Positions 905-63,145 of a stretch of 64,000 nucleotides of DNA are shown piece after piece. The DNA comes from Turritopsis dohrnii (taxonomy: Eukaryota > Cnidaria > Hydrozoa > Anthoathecata > Oceaniidae), in NCBI GenBank assembly GCA_027922465.2, contig BQMF02000056.1:1-64000 (forward strand), written 5' to 3'. Within the stretch, counting starts at the first letter, position 1. The number at the start of each line of letters is the position of its first letter. The position numbers were made by a program, and so were the translations under genes. Under the pieces are notes generated by a model that did not search any database, was not told the DNA's origin, and saw only the letters and a list, made by a program, of their open reading frames with translations.

Positions 905-2239
905 GTTCTCCATCAACATTCCCGAAATAAGCACTTGCTTCGCATGCATCACCTTTTTCACCTACATGACAGATTTGTCGATGAATTGTCGAGTTCTTAT
1001 TATGCGAACTGAACTTCCCGAATTGAGCACTTGTTCCGTGAAAGGTAACCGCATGCACCATCTGGTTCACTAACCAGACAGATTTGTTGATGAACTGTCG
1101 ATTTCTTATTATGCGAACTGAACTTCCCGAAACGAGCACTTGTTCCGTGAAAGGTAACGCATGCATCACCTTGTTCACTAACCAGACAGATTTGTCGATG
1201 AACTGTCGAGTTCTTATTATGCGAACTGAACTTCCCGATACGAGCACTTGTTCCGTGAAAGGTAACCGCATGCATCACCTTGTTCATCAACCAGACAGAT
1301 TCGTCGATGAATTGTCGAGTTATTATTATGCAAACTGAACTTCCCGAAACGAGCACTTGTTCCGTGAAAGGTAACGCATGCATCACCTTGTTCACCAACC
1401 AGACAGATTTGTTGATGAAACGTCAAGTTCTTATTATGCGAACTGAACTTCCCGAATTGAGCACTTGTTCCGTGCAAGGTAACCGCATGCACCACCTGGT
1501 TCACTAACCAGACAGATTTGTTGATGAACTGTCGATTTCTCATTATGCGAACTGAACTTCCCGAAACGAGCACTTATTCCGTGAAAGGTAACGCATGCAC
1601 CACCTTGTTCACCTACAAGACAGATTTGTCGATGAATTGTCGATTTCTTATTATGCGAAATGAACTTCCCGAAACGAGCACTTGTTCCGTGAAATGTAAC
1701 GCATCCATCACCTTTTTCACTAACCAGACAGATTCGTCGATGAATTGTCCAGTTCTTATTATGCGAACTGAACTTCCCGATACGAGCACTTATTCCGTGA
1801 AAGGTAACGCATGCACCACCTTGTTCACCAACAAGACAGATTCGTCGATGAATTGTCGAGTTCTTATTATAGGAACTGAACTTCCCGAAACGAGCACTTG
1901 TTCCGTGAAAGGTAACGCATGCATCACCTTGTTCACCAACAAGACAGATTCGTCGATGAATTGTCGAGTTCTTATTATAGGAACTGAACTTCCCGAAACG
2001 AGCACTTATTCCGTGAAAGGTAACGCATGCACCAACTTGTTCACCTACAAGACAGATTCGTCGATGAATTGTCGAGTTCTTATTATGCGAACTGAACTTC
2101 CTGAAACGAGCACTTATTCCGTGAAAGGTAACCGCATGCACCACCTTGTTCACTAACGAGACAGATTTGTTGATGAACTGTCGAGTTCTTTTTATGCGAA
2201 ATGACTATCCCGAAACGAGCACTTGTTCCGTGAAAGGTA

Positions 2240-3540
2240 ACGCATGCATCACCTTGTTCACTAACCAGACAGATTTGTCGATGAACTGTCGATTTCTTAT
2301 TATGCGAACTGAACTTCCCGAAACGAGCACTTATTCCGTGAAAGGTAACGCATGCACCACCTTGTTCACCTACAAGACAGATTTGTCGATGAATTGTCGA
2401 TTTCTTATTATGCAAACTGAACTTCCCAAATCGAGCACTTGTTCTGTGAAAGGTAAAAGCATGCATCACTTTGTTCACTAACCAGGCAGATTTGTTGATG
2501 AACTGTCGAGTTCTTATTATGCGAAATGAACTTCCCGAAACAAGCACTTGTTCCGTGAAATGTAACGCATGCACCACCTTGTTCACCTACAAGACAGATT
2601 TGTCGATGAATTGTCGATTTCTTATTATGCAAACTGAACTTCCCAAAACGAGCACTTGTTCCGTGAAAGGTAACCGCATGCACCACCTTGTTCACTAACC
2701 AGACAGATTTGTCGATGAATTGTCGATTTCTTATTATGCGAAATGAACTTCCAGAAACGGGCACTTGTTCCGTGAAATGTAACGCATGGATCACCTTTTT
2801 CACTAACCAGACAGATTTGTTGATGAAACGTGGAGTTCTTATTATGCGAACTCAACTATCCGTAATGAGCACTTGTTCCGTGAAAGGTAACGCATGCATC
2901 ACCTTGTTCACTAACCAGACAGATTTGTCGATGAACTGTCGATTTCTTATTATGCGAACTGAACTTCCCGAAACGAGCACTTATTCCGTGGAAGGTAACG
3001 CATGCACCACCTTGTTCACCTACAAGACAGATTTGTCGATGAATTGTCGATTTCTTATTATGCAAACTGAACTTCCCAAATCGAGCACTTGTTCTGTGAA
3101 AGGTAACCGCATGCATCACCTTGTTCACTAACCAGGCAGATTTGTTGATGAACTGTCGAGTTCTTATTATGCGAAATGAACTTCCCGAAACAAGCACTTG
3201 TTCCGTGAAATGTAACGCATGCACCACCTTGTTCACCTACAAGACAGATTTGTCGATGAATTGTCGATTTCTTATTATGCAAACTGAACTTCCCAAAACG
3301 AGCACTTGTTCCGTGAAAGGTAACCGCATGCACCACCTTGTTCACTAACCAGACAGATTTGTCGATGAATTGTCGATTTCTTATTATGCGAAATGAACTT
3401 CCAGAAACGGGCACTTGTTCCGTGAAATGTAACGCATGGATCACCTTTTTCACTAACCAGACAGATTTGTTGATGAAACGTGGAGTTCTTATTATGCGAA
3501 CTCAACTATCCGTAATGAGCACTTGTTCCGTGAAAGGTAA
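2240..3540. repeat. Higher-order repeat, 6-unit block (about 650 bp) in tandem
   Basis: Variant units recur in the same order 650 bases apart. The stretch beginning near 2,471 reappears at 3,121 and the one near 2,688 at 3,338, with identical deduced peptides. A third copy of the same block lies at 5,074-5,490, 1,953 bases (18 units) downstream. The diagnostic variants are the GCATGGATCACC unit and the unit with CAACTATCCGTAATGAGC. Confidence 0.85.
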
Positions 3541-3683
3541 CGCATGCATCACCTTGTTCACTAACCAGACAGATTTGTCGATGAACTGTCGAGTTCTTAT
3601 TATGCGAACTGAACTTCCCGAATTAAGCACTTGTTCCGTGAAAGGTAACCGCATGCACCACCTGGTTCACTAACCAGACAGAT

Positions 3684-5203
3684 TTGTTGATGAACTGTCG
3701 AGTTCTTTTTATGCGAAATGACTATCCCGAAACGAGCACTTGTTCCGTGAAAGGTAACGCATGCATCACCTTGTTCACTAACCAGACAGATTTGTCGATG
3801 AACTGTCGAGTTCTTATTATGCGAACTGAACTTCCCGAAACGAGCACTTGTTCCGTGAAAGGTAACGCATGCACCACCTTGTTCACCAACCAGACAGATT
3901 TGTTGATGAATTATCGAGTTCTTATTATGCGAACTGAACTTCCCGAATTGAGCACTTGTTCCGTGAAAGGTAACCGCATGCACCACCTGGTTCACTAACC
4001 AGACAGATTTGTTGATGAACTGTCGATTTCTTATTATGCGAACTGAACTTCCCGAAACGAGCACTTGTTCCGTGAAAGGTAACCGCATGCACCACCTGGT
4101 TCACTAACCAGACAGATTTGTTGATGAACTGTCGATTTCTTATTATGCGAACTGAACTTCCCGAAACGAGCACTTATTCCGTGAAAGGTAACGCATGCAC
4201 CACCTTGATCACCTACAAGACAGATTTGTCGATGAATTGTCGATTTCTTATTATGCAAACTGAACTTCCCAAAACGAGCACTTGTTCCGTGAAAGGTAAC
4301 CGCATGCACCACCTTGTTCACTAACCAGACAGATTTGTCGATGAATTGTCGATTTCTTATTATGCGAACTGAACTTCCCGAAACGAGCACTTATTCCGTG
4401 AAAGGTAACCGCATGCACCACCTTGTTCACTAACGAGACAGATTTGTTGATGAACTGTCGAGTTCTTTTTATGCGAAATGACTATCCCGAAACGAGCACT
4501 TGTTCCGTGAAAGGTAACGCATGCATCACCTTGTTCACTAACTAGACAGATTTGTCGATGAACTGTCGAGTTCTTATTATGCGAACTGAACTTCCCGAAA
4601 CGAGCACTTGTTCCGTGAAAGGTAACGCATGCACCACCTTGTTCACCAACCAGACAGATTTGTTGATGAATTATCGAGTTCTTATTATGCGAACTGAACT
4701 TCCCGAATTGAGCACTTGTTCCGTGAAAGGTAACCGCATGCACCACCTGGTTCACTAACCAGACAGATTTGTTGATGAACTGTCGATTTCTTATTATGCG
4801 AACTGAACTTCCCGAAACGAGCACTTGTTCCGTGAAAGGTAACCGCATGCACCACCTGGTTCACTAACCAGACAGATTTGTTGATGAACTGTCGATTTCT
4901 TATTATGCGAACTGAACTTCCCGAAACGAGCACTTATTCCGTGAAAGGTAACGCATGCACCACCTTGTTCACCTACAAGACAGATTTGTCGATGAATTGT
5001 CGATTTCTTATTATGCAAACTGAACTTCCCAAATCGAGCACTTGTTCTGTGAAAGGTAACCGCATGCATCACCTTGTTCACTAACCAGGCAGATTTGTTG
5101 ATGAACTGTCGAGTTCTTATTATGCGAAATGAACTTCCCGAAACAAGCACTTGTTCCGTGAAATGTAACGCATGCACCACCTTGTTCACCTACAAGACAG
5201 ATT
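3684..5203. repeat. Higher-order repeat, 7-unit block (about 760 bp) duplicated
   Basis: Units at 3,684-4,443 repeat at 4,444-5,203 with a 760-base shift. Examples are the TTTTTATGCGAAATGACTAT variant at about 3,705 and 4,465 and the ATTATCGAG variant at about 3,911 and 4,671. Only a few substitutions separate the blocks, such as CTAACCAG versus CTAACTAG, which points to recent unequal exchange. Confidence 0.85.
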
Positions 5204-5711
5204 TGTCGATGAATTGTCGATTTCTTATTATGCAAACTGAACTTCCCAAAACGAGCACTTGTTCCGTGAAAGGTAACCGCATGCACCACCTTGTTCACTA
5301 ACCAGACAGATTTGTCGATGAATTGTCGATTTCTTATTATGCGAAATGAACTTCCAGAAACGGGCACTTGTTCCGTGAAATGTAACGCATGGATCACCTT
5401 TTTCACTAACCAGACAGATTTGTTGATGAAACGTGGAGTTCTTATTATGCGAACTCAACTATCCGTAATGAGCACTTGTTCCGTGAAAGCAAATATCTCA
5501 AGGTAATTACTTATTTTGCCATCTTATTTGCAAGGTCATCAGGATATGGGCTATCATTTGATAACGAAAAGGGAAATAGATATAGAAGAAACATTTAATG
5601 TTTTGCAATTATTTCTCTTTCGTATTAAAAAGAAGGATATTTGCTGCTACTGTGATGCAAATTATTAACAAAAAGAAATTTTATTACTCTAAGTAAAAAA
5701 AGAAAACGCAC

Positions 5712-8700
5712 TTACTCAGCACCCGATAAAGCAATCTGAAGTTTTTGATCGAACAACTTTTTCTTCTTCTCATTCCATATATTTATCATGTATTGGATGA
5801 AAAACATGAAATGCTCTTGCGACATCTGCTTAGCTGAGGCCTTGATACATTGAAGGTATGAGTTAAATTGCTCACATATACTAGTGTTAACGACACGAAG
5901 ATCTTGCATTGCTTTGCTACTGTAAAGCGAAGAACAGCTGTGACTAAATCCGTGGAAGATGTCATGATAAAATCTCGTATCTTTAAAGTATCCTGCTTCA
6001 CGATTTAAGCAGTATTCCTCCAAACCACAAGCAAAGTCGTAAAAAATTACTTCTGGCGGCTTTTCAAGATGGGTGTAAAGGGAATAGGCCGGATCTTTTC
6101 TTCCTTCACTTCCGTTTACAATGTGGCAACCATAACAGTGTCCATGCATTGGACAAAACCATAAAAACAAAAATGTGGTTCCCTTTTTGGTTACAACTGG
6201 GTAGATCTTTTTGCAGGAGGAGGTCGAAGGCTGATCATCATGATTATTATGTGGGTTGACATCTACACTGAATGATCGTGGTCGTCTGATCTGTTCTCCT
6301 TTTGCCGAAAAATAATACGCCCGGCCAAACTGAGGAGGGTTATATATAGGCCAGGAATCGGCAAACAATTTTCTGGCTCGATATCGCTCTTGTGAATGTC
6401 TTTTACTTTATCACGAAGATAAGAAACTATAGCAAAAGCATCATGATCCAGTGAACCATTAACATAGAATTCTTGAAGAAAATCGGATAAATGAAGAGAA
6501 TGACAACGCACTGCAGATATTGGAACTGACGTTACTGACAGCGTCGATAGCAATGAAACCGTTGATAAAGAAATTAATGCCCTTAAAGGAAAAACTTCAC
6601 TGCGGCAATATGTTGCCTTGGAGAAAGTTCTTTGTTAATAAATCGTTCCAATAACTTCTTGCTATCAGCTGGGAAAACAGCTAGTAGATTTCGATTCTTC
6701 TGAGCTAATTGCATTTCTGTCAAATCGAGTGTGACTGGGAACTTCGTAAGTTCTTTGAGATGAATGCGTGACTCTCGGATAATCTTTTCGGTTTCTTTTT
6801 GCTTGGATATTGGTATATCGTCAGACTTTTGAGGATATGCGAGAAAACATCTATCGAAACGGCGATGAAGGGTATTTTGTAAATCGGTACGTATGGAAGG
6901 CTCAACTGGTTTTATGTTACAATGTTTCTGGTGAATGCCAACCTTCGTTGCATCACAAGCCAGAACTTTAGGAGTAAATCCACACCAATGACACGGGGTA
7001 CGAAATTCACGACTTTGACTAGAAGCCCACGAAAAAAATAACTTTTTTTGCTGACACAAACAATCTAGGGGATTGGTGGCGGATGTACGTTTTGTTCATT
7101 AGAGAACGAAATGCGTTGAAGTTGCACTTCATTTCTGTTACCATATCGATAAATTCCCAGCAGACCTCTTCACCGATACAAAGTAATCCGGAAATGCGGT
7201 AAATATTTTCACAAGCACCATTCCAACTGATCGTGCATGTTTTATTCCGGCAAATAATGGAAAAGGCATTCACGGAAATACACGCAAGCTTCGTGTACAA
7301 TGTTGTAACGCAATCAAATTGGTATAGGAATTGCCCAGTTCCGTCTTTTGGCCAAGGGAGCTAAATTATAAAAGGTTGTCAATGATAAAACACGAAGACT
7401 AAATATATAAATGATACATATTAAAGCTTGGACTACATTTACCTTGCATTCACAAACTTCTGTTTTACAGCTCGGAAACATTGACACATGGAAATCGGAA
7501 TTTTTAATTTTGTATATATACGTCTGTCGATCTAGGCAATTTTTAATTAACTGGTCATCGAAAGGATCATTACCAACTTTGCGCTGGTATGGCGAATAAA
7601 ATCTCCAAAAGCCATCAGATTGATTAAATGGAACTCTCCGCTGAAGAAAGAAACAAATATTCAATATAGCAAGGTTTATATATATGTACTTCTGTTTCTT
7701 TTTCTCTTTACCGTCCCTTCTATTCAAAAACTTTTATAAATGAAAACATCAGCTGGGCAACATGAAAACTTACTTCGTTGAATTCATCGGAAACATTCCT
7801 TTCATCGCCATCTTCTTCTAGAAATTCATTGACACATTCTTCGTTGTTATCATCATCATCATCATCATCACCGATATTAGCATCATCAACATCTGATTCA
7901 TTTACCTCATCGGCATTACACGTTTGCAGCATAGCATATTCATTTTTGCGAAAGTCCAGATGGCATTTAAGGAATTTAAGATGTGGACACAGCGTAGTAC
8001 ATGTATTAAGTTGAATGATGTTTTTCTTCTTACTGAACTGACTCTGGCAAATTCCAGAGCAACACTTAACATATACTTGGTTGTTTGATTTCGATTTAAA
8101 CATGTGCGCAAACTCAACATCGAAACCAACACACACAGAAAACTTCTCAATATCTGCGTAGGTTGATGGCAAGTTAACAACCGGTTCTTTTGCAGTATCG
8201 ATACCAGTTTTTATTTTTTTGACTAACAAGCTATCTGAGATGCTTTCAACATTCTATGAAAAATTAAATTACCGTTAAAACACCGTTGTAATGACATTAC
8301 AATTTCTAGATCCTCTATATACTACCATCTTACCATGTCATGAATTTCTGCAAAAAAACCTACAATGACAACAAGTAATCCCTTCCCAATCATTTTCACC
8401 GAAATTAACCAACACTGTTGACATCAACGTTCTATATGTTTCACATGTACAAGTGTATGTCATTCTACCTTCCATCATTGTCTTTGTTACTATCACGTAT
8501 TCATTAAACTGCAAAAAAGAAAGTAGAGATATAAAACATTTAGAGGACTGATAAAGTTACAACCAATGTAACAGTTTTTAAAAGCATATTATATTGCCAC
8601 CTTAAAATTTCCGGATTCTGAGTTGTAATCATTCATAATCACAATTTCATCGATAGGTAACTTCACTCGCCATAGTAGAGTTCCATCTCCAATGAGGTTG

Positions 8701-10088
8701 CTTTTAAAGGAATTGTAGATAGATTGGGTACCAACTGTTGTTTGGATTTTCATTGTGTCATACTCTTCATCTGTTATTCCAAGGAAGTCTAGCAAATCAT
8801 TTGAGTTAAGTCTGACACGTTTTCGAGGATTTACTGATGTTCGTTCCAACAAAAAGTGAGATAAATTGACTGGAACAATATGATACTTGTTAGCATCCAC
8901 AAAAGAAAGAATAGTTTTTAAGTGAGCTCTTATCTTATCTATTTGACTACTTTCATTGTTAAGTTCTAAAATCCTACTAAGAACAGTAGTCATAATCTGG
9001 TGGCGTGGTGATTTTCCTTTAGGTAGGACATGCTCTTCCTTTTTGACTCCGTGTGCTTTACTTGAAGCCCAATGATGATAATTAGGGCATGAAGATAACA
9101 CGAAAAACTGTTGCTCTACAGAAAGAAATTCAACATCTTTGAATTTTTCGACTGCACCATTAATAGAAAGTTGATTAAGATGTGGATCTAGCATGTAATA
9201 TTTTATTTTTCTGTCCCACAAAAGAGAATCCCCAAGATTGTGCAACTTGAAATAACTAAAACAAAATGAATTAATTAGATGGAAAGAGGCTAGCAGGTTT
9301 CATACCAAAGCTAATAAGTTTATAAAGCTCACTAGTTATCAGCACTAAAACTGTCCTTTGAATAACGGGACATTCGTTTGCAAAACACCACATAACCAGG
9401 TGCATATTCATCAAATTGTTTCTGGATTGTAGCATGGGCAAGTGGTAAATATTTTGACACTGATGTTTTATTGTGCTGAGTTATATCTTTAAACATTTTT
9501 TGGCAGGTGTAGTATCTAAAAAAAGTAAAGCCACTGAATAAAATGATTTATAGTGAAGACATAAGAAAAGATCATAGCATTAGAACCAGAAGATAGAGAA
9601 TATAATCCTTTTTACTAACCAGGTTTCAAATTTTCACGATGTTGTAATGTTGCTGCAATGTCCCAGACATTGCAAATATGCAAAACATTCTTGAATATTA
9701 AACTTTTTAATTACATCTGCAAATAATCATTTCCAATTGCTTTGGAGAAACTGTTTCAAAACACCAGATTCAAAACACCTGAAGAGAAAATAATACAATA
9801 AACATATGATTTGAAAGCAAGAAGATATTTGTATTTTTAAATGTTCTTCACATACCTCAAATATAAAATAAATTGTCCATTCAAATTAAACACCAGTGGT
9901 ATACAGTAGAGAATTCCATCAGTACAATTTGGATATGAAGCTAGTAACAATATCTGCTTTTCAACAACTAACATATGTGGAGTTCCCAACATATGCTTTT
10001 TAGATGGATCTTCAAGGAATATGGTCGAAGTAATTGACTGCTGGATGTGTTTTTCGTAGTTTGCAGCTTCCAGTGAATTTATAAGCAA
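5712..10088 (-). pseudogene. Decayed KDZ-type (Zisupton/Dileera-like) transposase gene, multi-exon
   Basis: Several minus-strand coding blocks make one protein in order: about 10088-9856, 9515-9345, 9257-8604, 8516-8340, about 8229-7774, 7641-7453, 7300-7019, 7059-6583, 6553-6263 and 6368-5712. Recognisable parts are a cysteine/SWIM-like segment (CTCETYR, then CCHC), an acidic aspartate-rich linker, the CHWCGFTPKVLACD block and YDFACGLEEYCLNRE near the C-terminus. These are typical of KDZ transposases and HMGXB3-like host relatives. Splice signals are good in places, such as GAA/gtaagt at 7773. The frame is broken at four or more points (near 8,350, 7,040, 6,590 and 6,350), mostly in A or T runs. 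It is probably a dead element; assembly indels could explain some breaks. I found no terminal inverted repeats. Confidence 0.6.
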
Positions 10089-14563: not shown

Positions 14564-17500
14564 TTATTGCAGAGTCTTTGCCAGTGCTCTGTCCAGCAAA
14601 TGTTTATGGGTCACTTTACAGAAGCTTTTGTAATTAACAGTTGTCCGACAGGACTGTGGGAGATCATTGAATGATTTCGAGGCTACATGATCAAACAAAG
14701 CAGGGTTTTTGCTATCGCAGTTGATGATTAGTCTTTTAACATTCCTTGTTGGTGGTTGTGGCTCGGCCAGTCCTGGCAATTAATTGATTTCCATGCCAAT
14801 TTTACGATGCTATGCTCAACCCGCTCTTCAATTGGCAGCCAGTTCAGGGCAATAACTTCGGAGCGTCTTGTGTAACATCCCTTCACAAAGCTTGCTGTGG
14901 CGTTTTGGGCTCTTTGTAATTTGTTGAATAGGTATTTTGGTGCATTATGAAATATAGCGTTGCCATAGTCAAGCTTGCTCAGGACAAGTGACTCAGCTAA
15001 TTGTTTTCTAAGGTGAAATGGTAAGTATCTTTTGAGCATCGCCAGAGTTTTAAGTGTCGCGATTGCTGAGGATGTTACTTTGTTGACATGCGAATTCCAT
15101 TTTAAGTCTTTGTTAATGATTATTCCCAAAAGTTTGAAGGTTGATACTTGTTCGATGTTGTTACCATCTAATGATTTGATTTCATACGCGAACTGGTGTT
15201 TCTTTGCCATCTTTGTAGTAGAAAACAGCATAGTTTTCGTTTTATGCGGGTTTAATACCAGGTTTGTTTCTTTTGACCACATTTGAAGTTTGGCAATGTC
15301 GTTGTTTAATGCATTTGCGCATTCTTTAATTTGCTTTGGTTTAGAGTGTCGGTATATGCTGGTGTCATCTGCATACTGAATGCATTTAGCAGACGTCTTG
15401 TTAGACATGTCGGGAACATAAATATTGAATAGCATAGGACCTACCAGTCTATTAGTGACTGGTAAATGTTTTGAAGATAGTTCGTCGATTTGTACATATT
15501 GGTAACGATGAGATAGGTAGCTTGCCAGGATAAGCATAGTCTGTTTCAGGAATTTAAGGGAGTGAAGTTTATGTATTAATATCTCAAAATCAACCGAAAG
15601 CTTTGGAGAAATCAGCCCTGACAGCTAGAGTAACTTCGCCACGATCCATTGCTTTGATGATGTCGTCTTTTATTTTAATACACGTTGTAACAGTGCAGCT
15701 GATAGTCGGTCGTCGACATGCTTAATGATTTGTGTTATAATTAGCTTTTCATGCACTTTGGAGAGGGTTGGAAGTATGGATATTGGTCTGTAGTCACCTG
15801 GTTCCTTTGGTTGGGATATTTTTGGTATGGGACTGATTTTAGAGATTTTCCATTGTTTTGGGAATGTTGAATTGCTTATCGATGAGTTGATTATGTGACA
15901 TATTGGGCTTGTTATTTCATCAATGCAAAGCTTCAGATAGTAAGAAGGGATCTGATCAGGACCAGTTGAGCAATCATTACGAAGCCCTAGAATTGTTTTT
16001 CTAACATCATTGTAGCTGACTTCGGAGATTTGGAATGCGTAATCTTGGACTGGAAGGTCGTTAATCAGGTCTTGTAGAAGACGTTCGGGTTTAGGTTGCG
16101 AATTTAAGAGTCTTTTAGCAGTGGTGTTGAAATACTCGTTAAGTACGTTTGGATCTGAAGTAATACGCTGAGGGTTTGGATTTAGAATGCGGTGGATGGT
16201 ATTCCAAACCTCTTTTGGGCGTTTGGATGATAGTGCCCTCTTGTAGAAGTTGGATTTGGCAGTTTTTATGAGCATCTTAATTTTATTTCTAATGTTTCTG
16301 ATCATTTCCCAGTCAGCTGTATGTTGCGTCATGTGTGCTTGTTTGCGAAGTTGATCTCGTTGTCTTTGCATTTCTCTGATATTCAGATCTTTTAGCCAGG
16401 GTGCTGGTGGTCTTGTAATCTTTTGTTTGATGAGGGGCGCATGTTGGTTTAGACATGAGAGGAAGAGGTTACTAAAGACATCCAGTTTTTCTTCAGGTGT
16501 TTCCATGGCATAAACTAGATTCAAAGGAAGTTTTTCTACGTCGGCTACAAAAGATTGTTGGTCAAATTGTTTTATAGACCGAATATATTTATAACGTGTT
16601 TCGAACCTCGGCTTTTTGATGCTGCATATGTATGGTGCGTCGTGATCGCTAATTTCATCACATGGGAGAACATCTTGGTGATGGATCTTATCGATGTTCG
16701 AGGAGATGTGGTCAATAAGTTTTGATCCTTTCCTTGTCGGTTTGATGATGTGTTGCTTTAGGCTAAGATGGTCTAACGTTTCTTGGTATTGTTTCACAGC
16801 GGCATTTTCTTTATTTAGCAGATTAATGTTCATGTCTCCTGTGATGATGATTGGACCTGTCCAAATCGTGTAGACGTATGATAGTAGTGAATCAAATTTT
16901 TGTGTCCAAGTCTGTTTATCAGTGAGTATTGAGCTTGGCTGGTAGAATACCGCGATCAATAAAGAATTACTCTTGTTTTTCACTTCCAACCACATATGCT
17001 CGATAGTATCATCCTTTTTGTTTATGTCAGATCTCAGCTTTTAGGAAAATTCTTCTCGTATATACAAACCAACGCCACCTCCGCGTTTGTGCAGTCTATT
17101 TTTGAATTCGAATTTGTAGCCTGCAATCGTTATGTAGCAAAGCAGAGGTGGATTGTTTTTCAGCCAAGATTCTGAAAGGGTAATGATGTCAAATTTGTAT
17201 TTGGATAGCATTGCCTCGAACTCCGGAAAGGAAGAACTCAATGATTGCGTGTTTAGGTGGCAGATGCTGATACGATTTCTATTGGCGGTTAGATGGGCTG
17301 ATGGTTATCATTTTCTGTAGTTATTGGAGTTGTTGGTAAGTTGGTGAGTTGCGTTGGTTGGTGCATAGTCAATATATCAGTGCCATGAAAAGGTAGTTGA
17401 GATAATAGGCAGCTGTGACATGTCCATACTGAAAGTTTGGGTGCATATTTATTGTTTACTTTGAGTATGCACTTCGTGTGTGTCGCATTTTTGCAGACTA

Positions 17501-17783
17501 CGCATTGATGTTGGAAAGAGTTTCTCCGGACAGTTTTCTGATAAACATTGCAAGTCGGTCGATGAGTCGGTCCAGGATTAGTCTCTATATCGCCGGAGAG
17601 AATTAATTGAAATGTAGCGTCGTGGTTCTTGTATAACAAGATGGGTGCACTGAGCCTTCGCTTGGTGTGACGAGTATAGATTAATATTGATTTGTGTTGA
17701 CTCGATGCAGCAGTCGTATAAGTAATATTGTCTGCAAAAAGATAGATCATAGCAAAGACCAGAAGCTTGTTCATCTTTATCAC
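14564..17783 (-). mobile_element. Degenerate CR1/L2-like LINE with 2A-like motif, endonuclease and reverse transcriptase
   Basis: On the minus strand the order is as follows. (1) 17783-17289: a hydrophobic N-terminus, a 2A-like SGDIETNPGP, then a PHD-like cysteine/histidine finger (CVVC, HTKC, CHSC). (2) 17280-15670: an endonuclease with ITLSESWL, GGGVGLYI, ITGDMNINLL and ISDHDAP, passing into reverse transcriptase (STGPDQIPSYYLK, DYRPISILP). (3) 15600-14728: more reverse transcriptase with QYADDTSIY. (4) 14779-14564: a C-terminal tail. Breaks are a frameshift near 17,290, an in-frame TAA at about 17,041, stops near 15,670-15,570 and a frame change near 14,770. The usual QGS of the reverse transcriptase palm is degenerate. 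The 3' side ends in an A/T-rich tail at 14,480-14,560. It is a dead copy. Confidence 0.9.
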
Positions 17784-25890: not shown

Positions 25891-27017
25891 CAATGCAAAT
25901 GACTAAAATAAACCTATAAATCTGTTTGTTTTCAAATAACATGGGAAACTCATAGATCTTCATGAAGATCTTATCAGAAAGAACCGTTTAGAACTACCAA
26001 TATTTCATGTCTTAGATTACTTAAAGTCACTCTATTGGCTAAAAACAATTTTGTCAGCAAAATTTTTCAATTTCCTCTTACGTATGCATAGGAAATTGTT
26101 TGGTTTACACATTTTACCTATCTGTTCTGTGTTACAGTTTTTCGCGGCTTTTGGAAAGTCAATTCGGATTTTGGATCATTTTTTATGCTAAGTGTAATGC
26201 ATAAAAAGGGCATTTTTAACGTTACATCATAAAATTATTATTCTTTTATAACCTTACACTACTATATTGGAAGTTATTTTTTTTATATTTTCAATTCATT
26301 CTTCAAATATTTCATTAACACCTTCTTAAGATATGTACGCACAACACGCGATCGTTTTGCCAACCAATCGTTTATGTAGCTTCGTAGAATCTTTAAAGAA
26401 GGATTTTAAGAATACTTTCCTGTTTATGCTTACTGTTAATCATTAAAACATTTCTTAGAGAGGAAGAAGAAAATGAAACATATTGAATAAAATAAAACAG
26501 CCATAAATGGCCGTAACTCAGCCGTCTTAACGAAAAATTGTGGGAATTAACTCACATTCGAACTACACAGACTCGCCTTTGCGTTTGTCTACATTTCTTA
26601 TATAAGAAGAAAGGTAGCGGAAATCGGGATTTTAGAAAAAAAAAGTCGTTGTCAATTTCATCTGCTTTTTCTTTCCGAAAAAAATCAACTACTAAGAAGC
26701 TACAAGGGTTAAAGGTTATAACGTAAAAAAATGACAATCGAAAATCTTAAGATTTTAATAAAACCAAAGGTGTAAAGATAGTAAAATATCTAACTGACAA
26801 AAAATACACAAGTGTTTTTCAAAAAACTAGGTTCATGGAATCATCATATTTTTTATGATTCATAAATTTAGACAGCCAATAAATGAATGCGAAATGTACT
26901 TTGTCTAAAACACATCAGTAATATAATAACTAAAATCAAAAAGGCGTCTAAGTGAAAAGGTTGAAGAAAAGCCATTTTACACAACAGAAGACAAGTTCAT
27001 GTGTGCGTCCGACTCAG

Positions 27018-27935
27018 TTAAACATTTATAGCAATAATCGCACCTCTGTTATCCAAATTCAGTTCGGTTGTATCGTCTTCTAGAAATACCTCCATAATTT
27101 CATCTATTGTGGTAGGTACAGTCAATTTTTTGGCTGCAAAATATTTGACAATATGCGTGTGATAAACATTCACAGTAGCTGAATCGAAAATCATTTTCAT
27201 GCTGAACTGGTTTTCTAGGTTATTGCGTAAGCACACAATTCCACATCTAGTGCACTTAAACAATCAACTTTTATCTCCAGACGAAACATTTTGACTACAA
27301 GGTGGACATACAACCCTTTGTTGCTCATTGAAAATCGAAGATGGCGGAAAATAAATTGATTTTATTCTCAATTCGAAAAGCGTGCTTTTAGCCTTGTTAA
27401 TGTCAGTAGAGGAAGGTGTAAAGATTGTGTTGTGGTTTGTATTAAGCGAAACAGTTCCAAAGTAATCGTTCACTACTGCACTTGTAATCAAATACACTCC
27501 ATCGTTCTGAACTGACTTTATCCCGTCACCCCACAATGTAACCTTTATTACACCCGTCTCATCATTAGCGGATAAATCTAACTTGTTTACAACTGCACCA
27601 GTTTTCCTTAACTTCGTAGGAATATTCGGACGACCTTCAACTGTGAGGTATGCTTCAAGTGATACTACATCTCGGTGAATTTTACTTTCTAATATTGACT
27701 TAATTGTCAGTAACTCCGACTTTGCATATTCAAATGATGGATTAACCACCTTCTCAATCTTTGAGTTATGTCCAATTTGAATATCTTCTGCTGTTGAATC
27801 GAAAAAGTTCATTTTTCTTTTCACCCCAGATAATTTGATAGGACTTCTCGTCTTGCAGCGTTTTCCAATTCGTCATGGTAGCTTTCATTAAAACAAACAC
27901 CACGGAACGTTTTGGTAGGCGATTGTAGCTGCAAG
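27018..27935 (-). pseudogene. Broken RPA-like OB-fold and zinc-finger protein
   Basis: The frame from 27824 to 27018 gives an OB-fold-like stretch (LDLSANDETGVIKVTLWGDG, then DYFGTVSLNT) and a C4 finger, CPPC then CTRC, as in RPA1-type single-stranded DNA-binding proteins. An in-frame TGA at 27264-27266 separates the two halves of the finger; the frame continues on both sides. Upstream, an acceptor near 27935 leads into a probable extra coding segment (containing FRGVCFNE) in another frame, implying a further frameshift near 27,850. Such multi-copy RPA-like genes often travel with transposons. It lies on the same strand and just downstream of the peptidase-like pseudogene. Probably inactive. 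Confidence 0.6.
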
Positions 27936-28077
27936 TTAAAATATTTCAAATTTTGATTTTTCTTGGTATGCTTCACTGATGTCACATTATGTACATAAGC
28001 AACGAGATCTGCAAAATAACAATAAGTAAAATTGACATAGAAACATTATAGACGAGTTTCCAATGTTAATTACACTT

Positions 28078-28617
28078 TTATACCTTGTACATACTAAAAA
28101 TCAAATACAATGTATGAAAATAGATAGGAAGTGCTAATGTGTATTGAAACTTTCTAAAGTCGATTGTCTTTAAGGGGACTCCAGAGAACCAATTAAAGTG
28201 ACAACATTTTGAAGTGTATAAAGAGACTTTTATTTCCTGCGAGGCTGCGTGCGCATATTCACAGGAAAATGACTTGATTAATGATATTCTATGTTGCAAT
28301 ATACCGTAATTATCGAGCAAAGAACACTGATGTTTATAAGCATTACGTCACTAAGAAACTCCTCTATATTCAAATGTCATTACAGTCAGACTGTATTTTT
28401 GAGACCAAAATATTGCAAAAAGACTTATGCATGCACATTGCCTACCAGCTGTATTCCCAAACATTTCTACGTTGCCTTGATTAAAGCTACCCAAAACTGA
28501 TTTGATAATATTGTAATTAGGCATAGTTTCTTCACGAGACGTTACGATCACCCAAAAACCAGTGTTGCAGTAGTAGTTCGAGTGCAAACACTTTAGGCAG
28601 TATAAATAAAAACACAC
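28078..28617 (-). pseudogene. Broken cysteine-peptidase-like domain (papain/OTU-like, transposon-associated)
   Basis: The frame from 28617 gives GSFNQGNVEMFGNTAGRQCA then ISLFAI. That resembles the active-site cysteine segment of a papain-like/OTU-like family found in mobile elements of fish and cnidarians and distantly at the N-terminus of some large DNA-virus tegument proteins. Two consecutive stops (TAG TGA, about 28351-28346) interrupt it. The same frame then continues for about 90 codons with the character of the domain's second half. The start of the frame touches the hairpin array on its upstream side. Family assignment is from remembered motifs only and no catalytic His could be fixed. 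Probably a dead mobile-element gene. Confidence 0.4.
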
Positions 28618-28905
28618 ACTGGAAACCTGCCCCCCGAATATATCAAACGTACTGGTAACTGTACGTTGCGGAAGGCACCAACTGGAAATGGACAGATGTT
28701 TATAGTTTAAGTGTACTGGAAACTGTACACTTCAGGAGGTGATACTTAATAAATAATAAACACACTGGAAAATGTGTGCCACAGTATATTTCATAATATT
28801 ACCAACGTACTGGAAATTGTACGTTGTAGGTGGTTTCAAGTGCACTGGAAACTGTACACTTCAAAAATATGGTAAGCAACAAACTCACTGGAAAAGTAGT
28901 GCCTA
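28612..28905. repeat. Array of eight short hairpins sharing a TGGAAACT-type loop
   Basis: The loop core TGGAAAN or TGGTAAC occurs at 28620, 28653, 28683, 28717, 28766, 28811, 28846 and 28889. Most copies are flanked by complementary arms: ACGTAC/GTACGT at 28653 and 28811, AAGTGTAC/GTACACTT at 28717 and its AAGTGCAC variant at 28846, CACAC/GTGTG at 28766. Arm sequences differ between hairpins but remain paired, while the loop stays nearly constant. The order of arm types partly repeats (CACAC, ACGTAC, AAGTG, CACAC, ACGTAC, AAGTG), suggesting duplication of a unit of roughly 130-158 bases. Outermost copies pair less well. Function unknown. Confidence 0.8.
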
Positions 28906-29049
28906 AAGTTGATGTTGTGTGTAGTGCATCATAAAGTCAACAAAAACTAGTAGAAAGAAATTTTTAAAAATAACATTGGAAACAAGTATGGCCACAGTAA
29001 AAAAAATAACTAAAAGTAAATTTGGGGGAACAAATAAGCAAAAACCAAC

Positions 29050-29223
29050 CTCTTTCTCTTTCGTAACTGCTTCGTAAGGAACTCCACGCTTTAACTTGGG
29101 GAGAGCACAAGATTTACGACTTACACCATTTTGAAGAACCGTGCGCTGCGCATGATGGAGGTGATAGCGTGCAGCCTGGATACCGCGTGGGAAGGTTAGG
29201 CTCCGAAAAAAGTTCGACGACAC
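29050..29223 (-). CDS. Possible exon of unknown minus-strand gene
   Basis: About 58 codons without stop, basic in character (RGIQAARYHLHHAQRTVLQN, then KLKRGVPYEAVTKEKE). It ends at a good donor, GAG/gttggt, at 29050. The frame opens at GTG with no ATG, so the real start is elsewhere. It is upstream of, and on the same strand as, the peptidase-like and OB-fold frames, with the hairpin array between. It may be the 5' part of the same mobile-element gene, but no domain was recognised. Confidence 0.3.
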
Positions 29224-29696
29224 GACAAAAAGAGGATTTTAATACTCAGCCTGCCGTAAACGGCCGGCTGAGTAATTATGCTTTAAAAAACTTTCATCAT
29301 TCATAACAGAAATGCATGTACTATCCAGATTACTGGAGAAAGATCTAATCAATACATACACGAAATTTTCTAATAAATGCATGAAACGTGTTTATCTCAA
29401 TTGAAAGAAAATTTTATCGACCTGTAAAGGAACTGAGTAAAACTTAAAGAATGTTTCGTTGTTGTTTACATATATTGACTACTTTCTTATTCCAAGCAAT
29501 TGACTCGCAATGCGAAAGAAATTAACGCAGAGGAAATTTACGCGGTCGAGGAACTTTTACTTTTGAATTTTTAATGAAATAGACCTTTCTCGAATTTCTG
29601 TTTAAACGATGCATTGTACCCGAGTTGTCGTGTCTAACCTCGCTTCTGATATTCAAACTATTTCTAAATATCGGAATGGGAATTAAGTATAATAGA

Positions 29697-30266
29697 GACT
29701 AAGGTGCTGATCATATGAAGCTTTTCATCCCGGCAAGGCGGGATGAAAATTGTCCCGGGACGGTTTTTACATTGCGATCATATGAGATTTTTGTCCCGCC
29801 TTGCCGGGATGAAAATCATCCCGGGATAGTTTTTATGCCATTGTTTATATAAAAAATTTTATTACTGCGCACGCGTGAAATATTATCTCGTCCCGGCAAG
29901 ACGGGATAACTGTGATCATATGGGAAAAACCACCTCGCTTAAGTGGGATCCCGGCAGAAATAAACGAGATCCCGCCTAACCGGGACAGGGTGTTTTTTTT
30001 TCATTTTCCATATGATCAGAAAATTTTTTTTGCGAGAAATACACAAAAGCTTGGATCTCGTCAAAACGTCTCGTCTCGCCCTGCGGGGATGAAAAGCTCC
30101 ATATGATCAGTCCCTAGGCGGGATCTCGTTTATTTCTGCCGGGATCTCGCTTAAGCGAGGTAGTTTTTTTCCATATGATCACAGTTATCCCGTCTTGCCG
30201 GGACGAGATAATATTTTACGCGTGCGCAATAATTACAATTTTTATATAAACAATAACTAAACAATA
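29697..30266. repeat. Mirrored foldback repeat with six TGATCATATG motifs
   Basis: Arms at about 29838-29977 and 30114-30266 are inverted copies of each other. Shared runs include GTCCCGGCAAGACGGGATAA and CCCGGCAGAAATAAACGAGA. GATCATATG appears three times forward (29709, 29776, 29914) and then three times as CATATGATC (30009, 30100, 30172). CCCGGGA-rich segments recur between them. The outer left segment (29697-29745) also pairs with 30070-30110, so the structure looks like nested or rearranged copies of a foldback DNA transposon. There is no coding frame. Confidence 0.8.
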
Positions 30267-30292
30267 TAAACAATAACTATCCCGGGGTGATT

Positions 30293-30361
30293 CAACCTCG
30301 AACCCAGGGTCTCTTGCCTTTTCGATATACGGATAGCGGCAAAGAAGACCCTGGCGAACGC
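30293..30361. repeat. CAACCTCG palindromic element, diverged copy
   Basis: It starts CAACCTCGAACCCAGGG and ends in an imperfect inverted copy (ACCCTGGCGAACG). The middle TTTTCGATATACGGA is shared with the perfect copy at 36539-36608. Confidence 0.75.
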
Positions 30362-30372
30362 TACCGAATTAA

Positions 30373-30626
30373 CTCATTCGGCGCCACGTAAAAAATCACT
30401 AAAAACATCACATTTTTTAAAAACCCATAACTAGTTTTCATGAAGCTCAATTATAGCCAAAATTCTAAGAAAACTGTTAGGAATTACCCCAGAAAACCAT
30501 ATATGTATGGAAAACTTAGTTAATTTTGAATCACTTAGTCCAAATTTTATCCCCTGAAATAAATTTGAGTTTGAGTTTTTGTGAAATACTGTGAGCCGCA
30601 CTGTGCGGCTCACGGCGCTGAATGAG
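30373..30626. mobile_element. 254-bp MITE flanked by TTAA (piggyBac-type)
   Basis: The ends CTCATTCGGCGCC and, inverted, CTCATTCAGCGCC are 12 of 13 identical. TTAA sits immediately outside both (30369-30372 and 30627-30630), the signature of piggyBac-type insertion. A subterminal hairpin GTGAGCCGCA...TGCGGCTCAC lies at 30591-30613. The interior is AT-rich and non-coding, so this is a non-autonomous copy. Confidence 0.85.
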
Positions 30627-31812
30627 TTAACGAATTCTATTGGCTGAAAATATTACAACGACCGCAGGATTTTCGAGCAAAAAGAAGAAATCATCCGAGT
30701 TACTGCTGAGGAAGATAAGAATTGGAGTCTAAAAATTTAATTATTCAAAATAACATTATTTTAGCTATCATTTCAATTCAAAAACCACTGGTATGGTGAC
30801 ATTATGTATTTACAATGAGAAAGGCTAACAACAAAAAATTCTTAAAATAATCAACAAGTGAACAAGATCAATTTTCATGCTCTTTTGACTGATAAAACAG
30901 AACAGTGATGAATTATGGCAGTCTTTTTTAGAAGAACATAGTTTCTAAGAACTTTAATTGTAGGCTCACACACATGTGCTAAAATTTAAGAGCATAATCT
31001 AGAAATATGAGGATGACCATCTTCAATCATTTCTGGGAGGAAAACATGAATTTTTTTTATGACACGATTTTTGAATATTATCAACAATAAAACTACAGAA
31101 ATCACAAATACATACAAATACATAGTTGAAACATTATTTGTTAATCACAGATTGACCTATATGTCCATATTTTAAATATCATAGAATTATTAGGACTGTT
31201 GTTATTCACGACACTCCATATGGACTCATCACCGGAATCAAACCAGATATATCCAAAATGCAAATCTTTGGATCAATGTGCTACCCAGTCGTGCAGAAAT
31301 CAAAGAAACTCGACCCTAAAAGTACCAATGGAATTTTCGTAGATGGTGATCGTGATAGTTCTATGATCCTGAATCACGAGTTGTCAGCAAACACCGTCTT
31401 GTAAAGTTTATCACATTATCGGATGCTGATGATGAATCAATGCCAGTTTCCGATGAACCGATCATCAAGACAAAGGAACCTGCTGCTACCGTTAGAACAC
31501 CTATCATAATTACTTAGATCACGTCAACCACCCAATTACTTCATTGATTACGAAGCTAAGTCAGAACCGTCCAATGGCGTAAATTATGGTGGTTATTGCT
31601 ATCACAACAAAACTCCGAGTTCATATGAAGATGCCGTATTTTGTCCAGAAGCTAACAAATGGAAACGTGCTATGTACAATGGGTTTGAAGTGTTACGATT
31701 GAATGATATTTTTGTCGTTACTGAACTGTCTTCCAATACGTCGATAGCTTGGGGTAGATGGGTATATAATTTGAAAGGAAATCCTGAAAATCCTATCTCG
31801 AAAATAAAATTG

Positions 31813-31880
31813 AAATCATAAGCATAGACGGTAAAAAACCAAAAGATCTTTTGGTTTTTTACCGTCTATGCTTATGATTT
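31813..31880. repeat. Perfect 68-bp palindrome with no spacer
   Basis: Two 34-base arms meet at GATC with no unpaired base. The left arm begins AAATCATAAGCATAGACGG and the right arm ends with its exact reverse complement. It lies inside the copia relic at the point where the reverse-transcriptase similarity ends. Confidence 0.95.

Positions 31881-43801: not shown

Positions 43802-63145
<19,344 letters not shown>

Follow-up and report, generated by a model that had tools for sequence, protein, structure and literature searches.

Within the window analysed here, a 64,000-nucleotide stretch of the Turritopsis dohrnii genome, lies a row of short sites built on the core TGGAAA, several of which are enclosed by complementary arms. 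An earlier note, made from the letters alone, described them as serial hairpins with a constant loop and co-varying stems, and suggested a structured end or recognition region of an unknown mobile element. The locus raises the question of what kind of DNA carries the array and whether it is the stem or the sequence of the site that has been kept. The sites are as follows (window positions throughout).

28612..28904, minus strand (element sense): array of eight TGGAAA-core sites (array region also given to 28905)
28612, 28645, 28675 and 28709: starts of sites C1, A1, x and B1
28758, 28803, 28838 and 28881: starts of sites C2, A2, B2 and C3
28967..28990 (near 28972), minus strand: C4, a decayed ninth site, reading AACATTGGAAAC in the window

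The core is read on the plus strand; on the minus strand, which is the sense strand of the element described below, it reads AGTTTCCA. At the place of C4 the relatives L153 and L155 have AAACACACTGGAAACA. All eight loops are present where the earlier note had put them. The core, searched as CTGGWAA, occurred eight times in 294 bp (28612-28905), whereas 2,000 dinucleotide shuffles averaged 0.14 occurrences and never exceeded 3, and eight of the 11 plus-strand CTGGWAA occurrences in the 64-kb window fell inside the array.

The stems were more variable than the loops. Four of the eight units formed perfect stems around an 8-nt loop (7 bp from 28646, 8 bp from 28709, 5 bp from 28761 and 8 bp from 28803), and the unit from 28838 had eight stem positions including one A.C mismatch. 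Units 28612, 28675 and 28881 had no good in-register stem, the last of these having an alternative 4-bp stem, so the claim that most loops are flanked by complementary arms holds for five units and fails for three. Perfect stems of at least 5 bp with an 8-nt loop gave five entries in the array region, two of them overlapping (shuffles: mean 0.37, maximum 4). In the window as a whole there were 104 such stems, and a second 300-bp bin held as many as that of the array (4); stems by themselves are not unique to the array. Folding was better than that of any of 100 shuffles both for the plus strand as DNA (z -3.2) and for the minus (sense) strand as RNA (z -4.0).

The unit types recur in a set order (C-A-x-B, C-A-B, C), and alignment of the first unit with the second gave a local score of 112.5, compared with 41.6 ± 5.6 (maximum 61) in 500 letter shuffles; the array is therefore a diverged tandem duplication, with about 2.4 copies of a three-hairpin unit. 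Such an origin is in keeping with passive tandem repeats, in which a palindromic unit that arose by chance was duplicated and its arms were kept complementary by template switching or gene conversion, with no function. According to the accessible text of the papers concerned, template switching can both create and maintain hairpin stems (PMC8794818), non-autonomous Helentrons may carry microsatellites or central tandem repeats (PMC4067079, PMC7492417), and central tandem repeats are known in HINEs (PMC7492417).

The element that carries the array was delimited by aligning 20 fetched loci to the window, which revealed one repeat element at 26492-29275, its ends (5' at 29275, 3' at 26492) being the points at which similarity to dispersed copies stops. 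The 3' end was seen in 13 of the 20 loci and the 5' end in 15, and the 5' end also in L153, which aligned from 28400 to the 5' end; L155, L156, L157 and L159 aligned solely within about 28400-28992. The flanks of the copies differ, except for a 5' flank common to L145 and L148. The array is thus part of a mobile element, as the earlier note had proposed. The parts of the element are listed from the 5' to the 3' end.

26492..29275, minus strand: whole element, by its gene content and ends a Helentron-type rolling-circle transposon with an internal deletion; about 2.47 kb without the private insert
29243..29275, minus strand: 5' terminus, sense TTACTCAGCC..GGCTGAGTA
29265-29273: 5' subterminal inverted repeat, CGGCTGAGT on the plus strand
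28400..28524, minus strand: first ~42 codons (MPNYNIIKSVLGSFNQGNVEMFGNTAGRQC...) of the peptidase-Rep polyprotein
28051..28364, no strand assigned: private 314-bp insert, outside the Helentron proper
27018..28019, minus strand: OB-fold gene, weakly RPA/SSB-like, frame broken in the window copy (exon-like DLVAYVHNV.. at ~27850-28019; ORFs 27264-27824 and 27018-27263)
26516-26524, minus strand: 3' subterminal inverted repeat ACTCAGCCG
26500-26511, minus strand: 3' terminal palindrome GCCATAAATGGC

Two other candidates for the ends were rejected. A 320-bp element with terminal inverted repeats (13-nt repeat, 28590-28602 / 28897-28909) was discarded because the repeat is of about chance strength by a rough estimate and the element ends are located elsewhere, and the inverted pair 28056/28968 because one arm lies inside the private insert.

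An internal deletion cuts the peptidase-Rep frame at 28399/28400, where homology to L153 stops (at 28400); the junction sets L153:5288 beside L161:3111, with about 7.7 kb missing. Judged by this comparison, the window element is a deletion derivative with two gene pieces left, and these are the broken peptidase-like and broken OB-fold frames that had been noticed on one strand beside the array. The piece at 28400..28524 matched no Pfam family. The OB ORF of the window gave REPA_OB_2 with E 7e-4, below the cutoff, and PDB SSB chains with E 6e-4; a shorter, 186-aa reading of the gene gave no family. Open frames of this gene in L161 and L158 encode 283-284 aa, with weak zinc-ribbon matches only. 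No relative of the OB protein was found at E ≤ 0.001 among 200 word-sharing candidates of a large protein set, nor among viral contigs. In L158 (contig C9), about 4 kb of DNA that includes an unclassified 467-aa open frame interrupts the array.

The 314-bp insert is edged by TATA on either side, and its inverted ends are short and imperfect (GACGAGTTTC / GAGGAGTTTC). None of the 15 fetched loci that aligned on both sides contains it, the uninterrupted site being seen in L141 and L161, and it is possibly a short non-autonomous DNA transposon.

A relative of about 10.2 kb on contig C492 (L153 and L161; L153:4411 to L161:4720) has the 5' end and the array as in the window, followed by a 962-aa ORF with matches to Herpes_teg_N (5e-7), DUF6570 (9e-18) and Helitron_like_N (PF14214, 6e-32). 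A PIF1 match (PF05970, 2e-31) lies in an ORF in another frame than the Rep ORF. A 380-aa ORF comprises the PIF1 C-terminus (PDB PIF1 E 1.5e-12, residues 86-172) and, at residues 197-370, a match to Exo_endo_phos with E 5.9e-5 (23.4 bits, compared with a cutoff of 24.5). Downstream of this Exo_endo_phos-like ORF come the OB-fold gene and then the 3' end, both as in the window. The C492 copy is not intact, a stop codon lying just upstream of SVLGSF in the likely first exon. The peptidase-like domain of the polyprotein scored to Herpes_teg_N in L153, L157 and L166, and a GRQC..DSHSRD reading was made out by eye in that of L153 and L166.

At the ends, the ACTCAGCCG repeat is set back by 2 nt on the 5' side and by 24 nt on the 3' side, and the palindrome GCCATTTATGGC stands 8 nt from the 3' end. 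In mite HINEs the subterminal inverted repeats are placed 2-4 and 38-60 nt from the ends (PMC4067079, accessible text), so the 3' distance is shorter here. The termini (5' TTACTCAGCC, 3' GGCTGTTTTAT) are not those of canonical Helitrons (5'-TC / 3'-CTRR). Among the 12 copies compared at both ends, the insertion flanks were T/A-rich, the 3' flank starting with T in 10; no target duplication was constant, and L142 had a 9-11 nt repeat in its AT-rich flanks.

On its gene content and ends, the host element of the array is classed as a Helentron-type rolling-circle transposon, and hence not as an unknown element. The accessible text of PMC4067079 gives subterminal inverted repeats, a 3' palindrome, an endonuclease tail, RPA and a cysteine protease as Helentron features. 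The family described here resembles Helentrons and the non-autonomous HINE / DINE-1 elements in its Rep/helicase, its cysteine-peptidase-like domain, its subterminal inverted repeats, the palindrome near its 3' end and its deletion derivatives, and probably also in the putative endonuclease-like tail of the helicase, the weakly OB/RPA-like gene and the T/A-rich insertion sites. It shares Helitron_like_N, the PIF1 helicase and a palindrome near the 3' end with canonical Helitrons of the Helraiser type, but differs from these in lacking TC...CTRR ends and in possessing the putative endonuclease-like tail, the OB gene and subterminal inverted repeats. From Helentrons as described in the accessible text of PMC4067079 and PMC7492417 it differs by the row of GTAC-TGGAAACT-GTAC palindromes that precedes the start of the polyprotein. 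The peptidase also differs, scoring to Herpes_teg_N and being fused to the Rep ORF here, whereas the described Helentrons, in the text accessible, have OTU cysteine proteases in additional ORFs. The array is moreover internal to the element, some 380-650 nt inside the 5' end in the sense direction, and is not a structured end.

A KDZ element was rejected as the host, the KDZ transposase fragment of the window (PF18758, 4e-9) being about 17 kb away with no CTGGWAA nearby. This fragment belongs to decayed pieces of a KDZ (Kyakuja-Dileera-Zisupton) transposase at 5712-9245 on the minus strand (Pfam KDZ 4e-9 for 5712-6368, the rest by eye). Elsewhere in the window are about 42 copies of a 108-bp tandem repeat (941-5489, 90 % matches), non-LTR-like reverse transcriptase pieces (14728-17783, minus strand; RVT_1 1.4e-10 for 14728-15537) with a weakly PHD-like upstream ORF, and a class B receptor (7tm_2, 5e-22). 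A large nested fold-back element (29702-30292) with CCCGGCAAGGCGGG-type arms (90 nt, 93 % complementary) adjoins the 5' end of the Helentron. A perfect 30-bp palindrome with an 8-nt loop (31813-31880) lies in what by eye looks like a decayed pol region of copia type (31.2-32.7 kb), two pieces of which gave no Pfam family.

The copies of the array within the genome were used to ask what has been conserved. In 435,911,712 bases (891 contigs) the array region had at least 28 matches, including the window, and a search with the diverged copy L138 added no contig to those found with the window array. Between the hairpin types of the window array, arms do differ and stay paired, as had been claimed: the covariation score was 0.241, compared with 0.125 in shuffles (0 of 500 as high) and 0.161 in the best slid control. 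The simpler counts were less distinctive, five pairs with both sides changed being reached by 28 of 500 shuffles and five further pair types by 450 of 500. Between genomic copies the claim fails. In the 20 copies including the window, both sides had changed in one of 43 stem pairs, in one copy, and the other arm changes were one-sided or unpaired. The pair in question (A1 28649/28664) was G-C in eight copies, A.C in nine and A-T in one, with gaps in two, and both of its changes are probably CpG transitions. Covariation is thus a property of the differences between types only and does not represent the reverse of ordinary repeat decay; nor do the copies point to selection for co-varying stems.

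The sites themselves have nevertheless changed slowly. On a tree of 23 copies, arms had 17 changes over 72 sites and loops 10 over 40, together 27 over 112 (0.24 changes per site), which is about half the rate of the spacers (70 over 158 sites, 0.44), the flanks having 67 over 137 (0.49); these figures are to be read with the provision that one locus set gave the alignment, the tree and the counts, that several loci are near-identical pairs and that L139 and L163-L165 cover part of the region only. When the hairpin labels were shifted circularly, two of 390 shifts gave a value as low as that observed. The three loops without a good hairpin were equally constrained (5 changes over 24 sites), which places the constraint on the sequence of the site and not on the stem. 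The halved rate at the hairpin sites counts against passive tandem repeats.

Losses within the array were also seen. Five of the 20 copies (L126-L130, two of them with the same 5' flank) had a common 10-bp loss of the left arm of B1, L134 was without C1, L135 was without A1, and in L163-L165 the A2-B2-C3-C4 end alone was seen. Since deletion derivatives with partial arrays occur in several copies, parts of the array are probably dispensable in cis for copying. That copies with lost units are still numerous is compatible with passive repeats.

These losses also bear on a role as single-stranded DNA, in which the strand displaced during rolling-circle transposition would fold at the array and the hairpins would be recognised by the OB protein, a primase or Rep. 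Single-strand origins of rolling-circle plasmids fold into recognised hairpins. The element encodes an OB protein, the array folds well as DNA, and the related Helitron Helraiser forms circles in transposition (PMC4778049, accessible text). Against such a role, partial arrays persist in several copies and stem length is not conserved between elements. In the accessible text of the same paper, moreover, precise cleavage of the Helraiser ends is set by the terminal 40 bp, far from where the array stands here (PMC4778049). We consider a single-stranded role improbable and, because the Helraiser determinants lie in that terminal stretch, the array is unlikely to be a cleavage site.

More distant elements carry the same site. 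A pattern of three ACTGGAAA sites 22-50 nt apart had 103 matches in the genome, compared with 16 for the pattern read backwards. Among the matches listed were copies of the window family, plain tandem repeats (by eye C175, C238, C380, C39, C99 and C348) and another kind, in which GTACTGGAAACTGTAC returns at intervals of 35-38 bp (C155, C196, C322, C127, C604 and C613). Four of these last six contigs were fetched (C604, C155, C196 and C322), and in the first three of them tandem GTAC-TGGAAACT-GTAC sites stand directly upstream of the peptidase ORF, within roughly 90-130 nt. The C604 array has a similar 5' end (TTACTCAGC..GCTGAGTATTAAAAT) on one side and, on the other, a peptidase ORF that is 58 % identical to that of C492 (Herpes_teg_N 5.8e-6). 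Decayed peptidase readings follow the arrays of C155 and C196; their identity to that of C492 is 57 and 54 %, respectively, and to that of C604 70-72 % over the main part. C322 has arrays, and no peptidase match was found within its 1.4 kb. Arrays beside the same peptidase, for which the earlier note had proposed a search, thus recur in diverged elements of the genome. The array of C322 (L167) is interrupted by about 560 bp that are 89 % identical to window 55133-55692, apparently a dispersed repeat. In viral contigs a two-site pattern gave at least 120 stretches, of which the 12 densest clusters look like protein-coding repeats by eye.

Position is also similar. Counted in the sense direction from the 5' end, the sites of the window family stand at 382-651 nt with the ATG at 752. 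For C604 the corresponding figures are about 537-685 nt (exact-match sites) and about 817 nt. C155 and C196 have variant sites (AGATTCC) closest to their peptidase. The arrays are otherwise far diverged: the best match to the window array was 58 bp of C322 (76-78 %, E 0.004), and the C604 array had no match to it at E ≤ 0.01. Because the C604 array is 77-80 % similar to that of C322, the diverged elements do not represent two independent cases. When the 17 units (16 distinct) of the window, C604 and C322 were taken together, the covariation score was 0.180, compared with 0.185 in the slid control (34 of 500 shuffles as high), with 61.7 % of cells paired as against 57.0 % in the slide; with the C604 and C322 units added, the excess over the control that the window array had alone is lost. 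Judged across these arrays, what is common to the elements is a 16-bp site, in both sequence and place, and the long stems are particular to the family of the window.

The recurrence of one core at one place, although the spacers of these diverged elements have little in common, is the second observation against passive tandem repeats, and with the support for such repeats given above we hold them to be a rather unlikely explanation. An effect at the RNA level, with the hairpins forming part of the peptidase-Rep transcript, in its 5' leader or in an intron at the 5' side, and slowing translation or binding a protein at the AGUUUCCA loop, appears quite improbable. The array is just upstream of the start codon, its sense RNA folds well, and several arm differences are G.U in the sense strand (A1 28649 in nine copies, B2 28843 in all 20 and C2 28774 in two). 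Yet the single changes in L135 and L140 wobble on the other strand, and the commonest arm change in C604 and C322, CG to TG, is a wobble in the antisense strand and a mismatch in the sense RNA. Most stems of C604 and C322 extend no further than 5 bp, the covariation score of the joint set is not above that of the slid control, and the Rfam covariance models gave no match in 26500-31500 at E ≤ 1.

On balance we favour, with moderate assurance, the reading that the array is a cis-acting control or recognition part of the Helentron, a set of promoter-proximal protein-binding sites. Its unit is the 16-bp inverted repeat GTAC-TGGAAACT-GTAC in tandem, which follows the 5' terminus and precedes the start codon of the peptidase-Rep gene, and the sites are most likely bound by protein as double-stranded DNA. 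Candidate binders are proteins that the element encodes, such as the Rep, the OB/zinc-ribbon protein or the DUF6570/peptidase region, or else a factor of the host. Binding to several sites at the start of the gene may set, or feed back on, the expression of the transposition proteins; alternatively, it may mark the 5' part of the element for its own machinery. We infer the binding, the partner and the regulatory role from the location of the sites, their recurrence, the conserved core and the slow change. The altered core in type C (CACAC..GTGTG) and in unit x counts against binding sites, as do the variant sites closest to the peptidase in C155 and C196, the copies with partial arrays and the arrays of C322, which have no peptidase match within its 1.4 kb. 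The window array itself is carried along in a defective copy, because the gene that it would serve has been deleted there.

Replicons with iteron or operator arrays, like rolling-circle plasmids with their single-strand origins, also have tandem sites beside a Rep gene and palindromes with a conserved middle. The likeness lies in the tandem sites and the palindromes; plasmid context, demonstrated binding and origin activity belong to those systems, and the Helentron array is known from its sequence. A more far-reaching reading, which we regard as doubtful, is that the array is a dedicated, conserved, iteron-like set of 16-bp palindromes by the Rep gene that is bound by a protein of the element and senses its dose, and so controls expression or copying. 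If so, deletion derivatives that keep the array would titrate the regulator. No such array is described in the accessible passages on Helitrons and Helentrons that were reached by a search, a search that covered neither subscription papers nor Repbase reports.

The locus is a warning case, in that an apparently co-varying hairpin array owes its conservation, as judged by its genomic copies, to the sequence of its sites. The regulation of Helentrons, and the stretch from their 5' end to the transposase, are little described in the accessible literature, and the 16-bp site may offer a handle for pulling down the binder and for testing whether these elements control their own dose.
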